Below are positions 39,931 to 51,637 of a stretch of DNA of 64,000 nt, piece by piece. Made by a program: the position numbers and the translations under genes. Under the pieces are notes generated by a model. The model was not told the DNA's origin and made no database searches. It saw only the letters and a list, made by a program, of their open reading frames with translations. The stretch comes from Williamsia sp. (GTDB lineage Bacteria; Bacteroidota; Bacteroidia; Chitinophagales; Chitinophagaceae). The DNA lies in assembly GCA_015069695.1 (NCBI GenBank), contig JADCRZ010000018.1, forward strand, positions 1 through 64,000, written 5' to 3'. Every line of letters begins with the position of its first letter. Position 1 is the stretch's first letter.

Positions 39931-40437
39931 ATGAGCCTTAAAACCTTGTTACACCACCTGTGGGAAGCAATTGACAAAGTTTTCAAGAACGCTTCCAAAG
40001 AAGTCCGCGAAGTTGCCCTTCCCGTTGCCGTAAAAGCTGTTGAATCATTAAAAACCCTGATCGACCTGGACCAGTCGGATATGGTCGGGAAAATAGCCGG
40101 TCCCAGGGGTGTGGTATTTGAAGATAAGGTAAGACAACTCCTGCCCAAGATCCTTCTTGAGTTGAAACTCGTCGAAAAATGCGCCAGCAAAGAGACAACG
40201 GAAGAGATCATTGCCTGTGCCGTCAGTGAACTGCGCCTAAGCTCCGACAGGGCCAAAGACGCTTTTTTCCACAGCATCAGCGCCCTGCTCCTCAAAGACT
40301 TATCAGATGGCAAATTAAGCTGGTCGGAATGCGTGGAGCTGGTTGAGTTCTATTACAAGAGCCAGCACAAGCCAGCAGAAGACAAGCAGGAAACAGAACA
40401 ACAACCTGAGCAACCGAAGGAATTGTCTGAACCATGA
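39931..40437 (+). CDS. Hypothetical helical protein
   Basis: 168-aa ORF; its last two codons and stop (gaa cca tga) lie inside palindromic element A. Confidence 0.65.
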   Translation: MSLKTLLHHLWEAIDKVFKNASKEVREVALPVAVKAVESLKTLIDLDQSDMVGKIAGPRGVVFEDKVRQLLPKILLELKLVEKCASKETTEEIIACAVSELRLSSDRAKDAFFHSISALLLKDLSDGKLSWSECVELVEFYYKSQHKPAEDKQETEQQPEQPKELSEP

Positions 40438-40495
40438 TTTACAGGATGGGAGGGATTCGGGGATCGAATCCCTCCCATCCTGTAAATCATGGTTC
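40429..40495. repeat. Palindromic element A (31-bp perfect arms, 5-nt loop)
   Basis: gaaccatgatttacaggatgggagggattcg-gggat-cgaatccctcccatcctgtaaatcatggttc. Confidence 0.93.
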
Positions 40496-40506
40496 TAGAC
40501 TGACAA

Positions 40507-48687: not shown

Positions 48688-48787
48688 GGGGAAAGCCGTA
48701 CATTTAAACTGCTCAAAATAGATGAGCAAGTTGACACGCCGGTTCTACGGACCGAGGTACACAGCCTATGAGCACAAACAAATCCAT

Positions 48788-51400
48788 ATGATAAAATTTC
48801 TGGCCCTCTTTGCAGCCTCCGGTTTCTTTTTTTCTGTGGCTGCACAAACCAATTCCAGCAATGACCAGTATCCTTTCCGCAATCCATCCCTTTCCATCGA
48901 AGCCCGGGTGAGCGACCTGGTGTCAAGGCTCACGCTGGAAGAAAAAGTAGGACAGATGGTAAATGGAGCGCCCGCCATTCCGCGGCTGGGCGTACCTGCA
49001 CACAACTGGTGGAACGAGGCCCTGCATGGCGTGGCCCGCACGGGGTATAACGTGACCGTATACCCGCAGGCGATCGGCATGGCAGCTACGTTTGATACGG
49101 CCACCATGTACCGCATGGCTGATTATACAGCAGAAGAAGGAAGGGCTATTTACAACGACAACGTGCGCAAAGGCAAGCCTGGCGGCCAGTACGAAGGACT
49201 CACCTACTGGACGCCCAATATCAATATCTTCCGCGATCCGCGCTGGGGGCGCGGACAGGAAACCTATGGCGAAGATCCTTATCTCACCGGCATGATGGGC
49301 AGGGCATTTGTAACCGGCCTGCAGGGCAATGACCCTCTTTACCTCAAAGCCGCTGCCTGTGCCAAGCACTATGCCGTGCACAGCGGTCCTGAACCCAGCC
49401 GCCATACGTTTGATGTATCACCCAGCAAATACGATCTGTGGGATACGTATCTGCCGGCTTTTCATGAGCTGGTGGTACGCGCCAAAGTAGCAGGCGTGAT
49501 GTGCGCTTACAATGCCATCGAAGGACAACCCTGCTGCGGCAGCGACCTGCTGATGACAGACATCCTGCGCAACCAGTGGAACTTTACCGGCTATGTGACT
49601 TCCGATTGTGGGGCCATCACTGATTTTTTCCGGTTTCACAAAACACACCCCGATGCAGAAAGCGCTTCTGCTGATGCCGTGCTGCACAGCACCGATGTTG
49701 ATTGCGGCAACGCTTATCCTGCCCTGGTAAAAGCAGTAAAAGACGGAAAGATAACCGAACAGCAGCTGGATGTCTCGCTCAAACGCCTGTTCACCATCCG
49801 CTTCCGGCTGGGCCAGTTTGATGCCAACAACAAGTACAACAGCATTACCATGGCTTCGCTGGAAAGTGAAGCGCACAAAGCACAGTCCCTCAAAATGGCG
49901 CGGCAGTCTATTGTCCTGCTCAAGAACGAAGGCAACTTGCTGCCCCTGCGCAAAACCCTGAAAAAGATCGTTGTGCTGGGGCCCAATGCCGACAATCCGG
50001 TTACAGTTTTGGGCAACTACAATGGCAAGCCGTCCCGGATCATTACCCCCCTGATGGGAATCAAACAGGCTGTCGGCAGCGGCACAGAAGTAGTTTACCA
50101 GCAGGCCGTCAATTTTGTAAACGATACCATCTTTGAAGCAGAGGACATCAGCAACCAGTTCTCCATCGACGGGCACAAAGGCTTCCGGGCAGATTACTTT
50201 CAAAACCGGGAACTCAGCGGCGCACCTGTGCTCACGCGCACCGAAGAAAAGATAGACTACGACTGGAACGGCGGCGTACTGATGGCCGGCAAATTTCCGG
50301 CAGAGAACATGTCTGTGCGCTGGACGGCCGATTATACGCCTGATAAAGACGGCAGCATCACACTGGAACTGGGTGGCGATGATGGGTATCGGCTGCGCGT
50401 AGACAGCGCCACAGTGATCAACGACTGGGGCATCCACCGTTTCCGCTCTGCCAAATACACGCTGCAAACCCGGCGGGGCATGCGGGTTCGCATTACCATC
50501 GAATACTTCAACCGGGATGCCGGGGCCTCTGTGCGCTTTGGTGCGGGGCACTGGATCAAACCCGATCCTGCAGCCATTGCTGCCAGTGCAAAAGATGCGG
50601 ATGCCATCATCTACATCGGCGGCATCTCTCCGGTACTGGAAGGAGAAGAGATGGGTGTAAACCTGCCGGGTTTCAGCGGCGGCGACCGGACCTCCATCGC
50701 CTTGCCTGCCGTGCAAACCAACCTGATCAAAGCACTCAAGGAAACCGGTAAACCTGTTGTGTTTGTTATGATGACAGGCAGCGCCCTTGCCATTCCCTGG
50801 GAAGCAGACAATATACCTGCCATCGTAAATGCATGGTATGGCGGCCAGTTTGCCGGAACAGCCCTCGCCGATGTGCTGTTCGGCGACTACAACCCAGCCG
50901 GCCGGCTGCCTGTTACTTTTTACCGCAGCGAAAAAGACCTGCCGGCTTTTGATGACTATACCATGGAAGGACGTACCTATCGCTATTTCAAAGGCCAGCC
51001 CTTGTTTCCGTTCGGATACGGACTAAGCTATACCAGCTTCCGCTACAGCGCACTCTACCTCGGCGCCGGGACAACCCGGGCTACCGCTGTAACAGCCACT
51101 GTACGGGTAACCAATACCGGCAAGCGGGACGGAGAAGAAGTAGTTCAACTGTACGTATCACACCCCGGCCAGCAGGGCAAAGCACCGCTCAGGGCGCTGA
51201 AAGGATTCAAACGCATAGCCCTCAAAGCAGGAGAAACCAAAAATCTTACTTTCATGCTGACGGAGGAAGACATCTCCCTGGTTGACCCCAACGGAACGCT
51301 CAAAAAAGCCCCCGGCACGCTGCGCATAAGCATCGGCGGTAGTCAACCCACAGAACAGGCAAAAGCAGCGGGGACAGTAGTGGAGGGAACGGTGAAGTAG
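48788..51400 (+). CDS. Glycoside hydrolase family 3 with PA14 insertion
   Basis: CAKHYAVHSGPEP, GYVTSDCGAI, PA14-like GFRADYFQNRELSG...GDDGYRLRVD. Confidence 0.93.
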   Translation: MIKFLALFAASGFFFSVAAQTNSSNDQYPFRNPSLSIEARVSDLVSRLTLEEKVGQMVNGAPAIPRLGVPAHNWWNEALHGVARTGYNVTVYPQAIGMAATFDTATMYRMADYTAEEGRAIYNDNVRKGKPGGQYEGLTYWTPNINIFRDPRWGRGQETYGEDPYLTGMMGRAFVTGLQGNDPLYLKAAACAKHYAVHSGPEPSRHTFDVSPSKYDLWDTYLPAFHELVVRAKVAGVMCAYNAIEGQPCCGSDLLMTDILRNQWNFTGYVTSDCGAITDFFRFHKTHPDAESASADAVLHSTDVDCGNAYPALVKAVKDGKITEQQLDVSLKRLFTIRFRLGQFDANNKYNSITMASLESEAHKAQSLKMARQSIVLLKNEGNLLPLRKTLKKIVVLGPNADNPVTVLGNYNGKPSRIITPLMGIKQAVGSGTEVVYQQAVNFVNDTIFEAEDISNQFSIDGHKGFRADYFQNRELSGAPVLTRTEEKIDYDWNGGVLMAGKFPAENMSVRWTADYTPDKDGSITLELGGDDGYRLRVDSATVINDWGIHRFRSAKYTLQTRRGMRVRITIEYFNRDAGASVRFGAGHWIKPDPAAIAASAKDADAIIYIGGISPVLEGEEMGVNLPGFSGGDRTSIALPAVQTNLIKALKETGKPVVFVMMTGSALAIPWEADNIPAIVNAWYGGQFAGTALADVLFGDYNPAGRLPVTFYRSEKDLPAFDDYTMEGRTYRYFKGQPLFPFGYGLSYTSFRYSALYLGAGTTRATAVTATVRVTNTGKRDGEEVVQLYVSHPGQQGKAPLRALKGFKRIALKAGETKNLTFMLTEEDISLVDPNGTLKKAPGTLRISIGGSQPTEQAKAAGTVVEGTVK

Positions 51401-51585
51401 TCTGAACCATGATTTACAGGATTTAAAGGATTCCGGGTATTGGGACTGGTGGATAAGCATGATAGTTAATAATTTTATACCTCCGTCATCAGCTGATCAT
51501 TCAGTCATTAAGCCGGATGAAACATCCCTGCCTATCAGCATTCCAATCCCCGGAATCCTTTAAATCCTGTAAATCATGGTTCAGA
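51401..51585. repeat. Palindromic element B (37-bp perfect arms, ~111-nt inner segment)
   Basis: tctgaaccatgatttacaggatttaaaggattccggg (51401-51437) and its exact reverse complement (51549-51585). Confidence 0.93.
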
Positions 51586-51637
51586 CAGAATCTGTATTTT
51601 GCACCCTCCATCTTACTTATCAAATAGATTTTACCAT

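Follow-up and report, generated by a model that had tools for sequence, protein, structure and literature searches.

A gene-less palindromic element beside a GH3 gene, a probable relative of palindrome-ended elements that carry a GxxExxY nuclease gene

Element B, a long palindrome directly behind a GH3 gene in the 64,000-nucleotide stretch of DNA analyzed here (the window), is very probably a non-autonomous, gene-less relative of palindrome-ended elements that carry a gene for a GxxExxY protein. The explanation that we favor overall, and regard as probable, is that element B is a gene-less copy of a mobile family composed of two arms of phased short motifs and one GxxExxY gene. Element B shares its ends with other elements, a GxxExxY gene lies within such ends in many genomes, and the host genome holds a decayed gene of the matching subfamily. 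Across relatives, the type of end differs by protein subfamily, and orthologous spacers are occupied in some genomes and empty in others.

GxxExxY and IVP genes occur near dispersed repeats; the claims made here rest on the tests described below. GxxExxY proteins are very numerous (at least 600 matching stretches in one genome scan), and the papers found describe no role for them. Searches of the literature for the repeat sequence, the family names, and the topic, with a coverage that left out most subscription journals, returned no account of these elements and no description of GxxExxY function or of flanking repeats.

Element B and its copies in the host genome

The features referred to below are as follows.

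51400..51586, no strand: element B, a gene-less palindromic element, GTCTGAACC...GGTTCAGAC, delimited by inverted-repeat search and fold, with ends common to 257 half-sites in the genome
51400..51443, plus strand: left arm of element B, whose outer 24 nt, GTCTGAACCATGATTTACAGGATT, are the family end and are followed by further GGATT repeats at a spacing of about 9 nt
51444..51542, no strand: interior of element B, 99 nt, free of any GxxExxY remnant, of a class common to two other copies (L027 and L364)
51543..51586, minus strand: right arm of element B, the reverse complement of the left arm
51398..51400, plus strand: TAG stop codon of the GH3 gene (48722-51400), whose last base is the first base of element B
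40425..40500, no strand: element A, a short member of the same family with the same outer sequence, which gives the TGA stop codon (40435-40437) to an open reading frame at 39931-40437

The two arms of element B are 44 nt long and 98% complementary, with 99 nt between them. The palindrome described in the original prediction is therefore real; the perfect pairing reported for its arms also holds, over 38 bp rather than 37 bp and from a start one base earlier (51400), and the weak inverted similarity noted beside the arms (attgg..ccaat) forms part of the 44-nt arms. Folded as RNA, the element reaches -96.2 kcal/mol compared with -41.4 +/- 4.1 kcal/mol for shuffled sequences (z = -13.5, with none of 200 shuffles as stable), and folding as DNA gives z = -13.0. 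The element abuts the GH3 stop codon exactly, as had been proposed, because the first G of GTCTGAACC doubles as the last base of the TAG, and its 3' end lies about 50 nt upstream of the likely start of an oxidoreductase gene. Pfam supports the gyrB-like, GH3, and oxidoreductase genes around the element, in agreement with the earlier gene calls.

The outer sequence that elements A and B were said to share occurs four times in the window against 0.01 expected. It also marks a dispersed repeat, as suggested: searching the 7.66-Mb host genome with the 20-nt end of element B, allowing up to three mismatches, yields 257 half-sites and none for the reversed control, and the genome holds about 130 scattered copies of the palindromic element. 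Among 48 distinct whole copies sampled, which range from 45 to 614 nt, the commonest class measures about 133 nt and has as its consensus a single near-complete palindrome, center included, while the class of element B is smaller, including only two other copies, and has an interior that is longer and different. The idea that element A is a short version of element B thus stands as regards the shared ends and fails in its simple form: given this range of lengths and several unrelated interiors, element A is not just element B minus its interior. No GxxExxY remnant is present in element B or in the 47 other sampled copies. Additional palindromes are frequently nested within long copies, and those in L033, L036, L042, and L045 are of other kinds, as in the example around CCTGTAAGGGCGC.

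The arms of the host copies repeat their motif about every 9 nt (lag-9 periodicity, z = 19.9), and each copy pairs with itself better than with other copies. Over 31 copies, arms from the same copy match each other at 0.895; random pairing of arms between copies gives a mean of 0.816 and stays at or below 0.850 throughout 10000 permutations. At the variable arm positions 20-24, the within-copy match is 0.79 versus 0.46 for random pairing.

Placement was analyzed in the window and fifteen 20-kb stretches, 364 kb in all and 88% coding by simple open reading frame calling; these stretches were picked around known copies, and so show where copies lie and not how dense they are. All 15 whole copies are outside open reading frames. 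For most of them a stop codon is no more than about 10 nt away, and divergent genes flank none of the 15. Several other copies appear, like element A, to supply the stop codon of the preceding open reading frame. Such gene-end placement, together with the very stable hairpin and the matching arms within each copy, is what would be expected if the palindromes were host RNA or DNA elements, such as terminators or mRNA stabilizers, selected for the hairpin and not for mobility. We consider this very improbable in view of the near-absence of the palindromes from a genome of the same genus (G001, three weak matches), the nested palindromes, and the three copies with a common long interior, as well as the observations, presented below, that related ends enclose a nuclease gene and that such elements occupy orthologous spacers only sporadically.

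GxxExxY genes within related ends

A RAYT/Y1 transposase had been put forward as a possible autonomous partner. This candidate is not supported: a search with PF01797 gave zero matches in the host genome and found matches in five control genomes. PF05635 (IVP) was also rejected as the partner in the host, with no match in that genome, though it is found in similar elements of relatives. The only PF13366 match in the host genome is a C-terminal GxxExxY remnant between related ends, GTCTTGAACCAGGATTACACGGAT..ATCCGTGTAATCCTGGTTCAGAC. This remnant resembles the C terminus of a subfamily with the motif GNGFQE, and the profile of that subfamily (A2) scores it above the broad profile (A1). Element B itself has no GxxExxY gene and hence is not the autonomous form, and because the only such gene found in the host genome, located elsewhere, is broken, element B is likely a remnant from an earlier period of activity. 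The lack of an intact GxxExxY gene in the host genome, despite many palindrome copies, counts against the explanation that we favor.

In the wider bacterial family, GxxExxY is present in 126 of 200 genomes, and the GTCTGAACC palindrome end in 137 of 399, with zero for the reversed control in every row. The suggestion that similar repeats are dispersed in Bacteroidota genomes is thereby supported, as the same end type recurs in a phylum-wide sample. When GxxExxY loci are drawn from palindrome-bearing genomes, intact genes lie directly within GTCTGAAC..GTTCAGAC arms and often extend into the right arm. All of these genes belong to one subfamily, in which GNGFQE replaces GPGLLE at the name motif; since the loci were fetched by the GxxExxY gene, such arms may also enclose other genes. 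Family genomes in which TGTCTGAAC..GTTCAGACA arms enclose an intact GNGFQE gene are represented by L200, L205, L206, L211, L213, L214, L216, L218, L220, and L197, and GTCTGAACCATGATT-type ends, of the same type as those of element B, likewise enclose GNGFQE-type genes. A second, phylum-wide sample (L267-L296), drawn with the GNGFQE-subfamily profile and thus chosen by protein and not by ends, again has GTCTGAAC..GTTCAGAC-type ends in most GNGFQE loci. As for possible carriers, eight plasmid records match a GNGFQE-type protein. Only two viral contigs with GxxExxY were seen (L165 and L166) and no phage record matches a GPGLLE-type protein, so phages are not an obvious carrier.

The palindromes and the gene also co-occur among genomes: GTCTGAACC palindromes are found in 51 of 126 genomes with GxxExxY versus 5 of 74 without (p = 8e-8), a stronger association than that with the presence of the IVP family (p = 0.02). 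At the level of single loci, inverted repeats scoring at least 11 flank 65% of 75 GxxExxY loci from several phyla, compared with 4.6% of 1040 shifted controls taken from those same loci. Around GPGLLE-type genes, the arms are mostly of the kind exemplified by TTAACCACAGAGGCACAGAG (CACAGAG...). Classified by end, GNGFQE loci comprise 23 of the GTCTGAA type and none of the CACAGAG type, and 62 GPGLLE loci are of the CACAGAG type; the patterns put a small number of loci in the wrong class (L096, L067, and L068 as GTCTGAA-type and L139 as CAGAT-type), which leaves the picture unchanged.

Beyond these classes, similarity between arms correlates with similarity between proteins (Mantel r = 0.50, p = 2e-4, the largest of 5000 permutations reaching 0.08), and the tree of the GNGFQE subfamily requires 5 changes of end type compared with a mean of 11.7 after shuffling, none of 200 shuffles being as low. 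The type of end thus tracks the protein phylogeny. We grade these associations, the co-occurrence among genomes included, as strong but not decisive, because shared ancestry inflates such tests. The co-variation also appears within each subfamily, but is no longer significant there (p about 0.1) once close proteins are thinned, which counts against our favored explanation.

The main rival is that the palindromes are mobilized in trans by some other enzyme and that GxxExxY is a passenger. IVP genes, whose products have an unrelated fold, occupy similar palindrome-ended elements; a gene within such arms may therefore be cargo, a point that weighs against the explanation we favor, as does a host genome rich in copies with no intact GxxExxY. 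Given that the end type tracks the nuclease subfamily, that palindrome presence tracks GxxExxY much better than IVP, and that the host genome has no Y1 transposase, we judge the passenger role to be a serious but distinctly less likely alternative to a family in which GxxExxY and its arms belong together.

The protein encoded within the elements scores above the curated cut-off of PF13366 (PDDEXK_3), GxxExxY being the NCBI product name. Among GxxExxY proteins, the catalytic D, ExK, and QxxxY residues vary little or not at all. For a structural model of a GPGLLE-type member (pLDDT 95), the best fold matches are Cas4 SSO0001 (E = 0.001, TM 0.48-0.56 on the query) and lambda exonuclease, at borderline significance; a sequence search of solved structures found no relative. 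From its conserved residues and modeled fold, GxxExxY is predicted to be a PD-(D/E)XK nuclease resembling Cas4 and lambda exonuclease. In one genus, the GxxExxY domain is fused to a RecQ helicase N terminus beside a carB-like gene (L297 and L298; G555:C17 and G433:C22), an arrangement compatible with a role on structured DNA.

Occupied and empty sites, and a possible route of spread

Orthologous spacers provide a comparison of occupied and empty sites. The spacer between a Gfo/Idh-like oxidoreductase gene and a sugar-isomerase-like gene measures 21-22 nt in G217, G327, and G263, three species belonging to the same genus, while in a fourth species of that genus (G298) it is 541 nt long and contains a GxxExxY element. 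Elsewhere the same spacer holds three other element types, including GxxExxY elements with different arms in other genera. Across a set of loci (L243, L255, L237, and L260, and L246 and L249), at least four GxxExxY element types were observed in the spacer, with gene-less CCCCTTTAGGGG palindromes in two genomes. A second spacer, located before a gene starting near TLGELKKSGY, is occupied in three genomes, two of which have a GTCTGAAC-type element there and one an element of another type. At the site of element B, the GH3-oxidoreductase pair is kept in none of 29 relatives examined, and the same-genus genome G001 offers no usable empty site.

A target-site duplication is absent in 23 of 24 gene-carrying relatives, which counts against the favored explanation. 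In the one instance among the 24 (L274, G036:C12:6218), a GxxExxY element is flanked by a perfect 39-bp direct repeat of the gene end. The same lack of duplications, along with the lack of a Y1 gene in the host genome, speaks against ordinary MITEs left behind by a DDE or Y1 insertion sequence after loss of its transposase. Terminal inverted repeats and many short gene-less copies are what such MITEs would display; on balance, we find them very improbable, marginally more so than selected host hairpins.

Within the favored explanation, that the nuclease is the mobilizer of the elements is an evenly balanced proposition. If it is, the nuclease would recognize the arms of its own element, probably in hairpin or cruciform form, and its cut or resection could be followed by repair or template switching through which short spacers at gene ends acquire a copy of the palindrome. 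Arms without a gene, such as those of element B, would be moved in trans by enzyme encoded at another site in the same cell. Where the long RNA hairpin lies between two cistrons, it may be tolerated, or processed in the way that RNase III processes ribosomal intervening sequences, and the insertion would then be nearly silent.

More broadly, and more tentatively, these may be phylum-spanning, transposase-less elements in which a minimal nuclease of the Cas4/lambda-exonuclease kind recognizes and propagates its own palindromic ends and diversifies together with them, with gene-less copies moved in trans and IVP elements as a parallel class linked to the puzzle of 23S rRNA intervening sequences. 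If GxxExxY is linked to these self-complementary ends, which differ with the protein, a large class of palindromes dispersed through the genomes of environmental bacteria would be explained, and the function of GxxExxY could be tested concretely and cheaply.

Comparison with known systems

With Cas4, lambda exonuclease, and RecB-type nucleases, GxxExxY shares the predicted fold and the D, ExK, and QxxxY motif. It differs in comprising only about 125 amino acids and in being encoded by a solo gene between inverted repeats.

The ribosomal intervening sequence of Coxiella burnetii with its S23/IVP protein has inverted terminal repeats, a 28-bp RNA stem, and one small open reading frame that does not encode a transposase (PMC4990558). 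Such sequences have been termed selfish, and their mobility has been long suspected and is unproven (PMC4990558). The GxxExxY elements are alike in being small, in having inverted repeats that form a long stem, and in carrying one small non-transposase open reading frame. In contrast, ribosomal intervening sequences are located in 23S rRNA genes, whereas element B is flanked by GH3 and oxidoreductase genes and GxxExxY elements lie between protein genes, and the S23/IVP protein is unrelated to PD-(D/E)XK nucleases. Genes for IVP/S23 four-helix-bundle proteins (PF05635) were also observed in family genomes (L317-L346), at up to 17 per genome, and in 92% of cases, versus 5% of shifted controls, they are flanked by inverted repeats in which short motifs such as AAGTTGTAAGTATTAAGT recur in phase. 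The IVP palindromic elements could possibly represent a dispersed form of the ribosomal intervening sequences, which would open a new approach to the spread of intervening sequences with S23/IVP proteins.

REP sequences and REPINs with a RAYT tyrosine transposase (REPtrons and TIRtrons; PMC3733652 and PMC3116915) likewise consist of extragenic palindromes in high copy number together with a less frequent gene that has the same sequence on either side. They differ in their Y1/HUH gene, their GTAG/CGTC tag, and their palindromes of 20-40 bp, whereas here there is no Y1/HUH gene, no such tag was seen, and the arms are at least 40 bp long. In architecture, the elements described here are nearest to the ribosomal intervening sequences and to the REP/RAYT systems, but without a defining feature of each.
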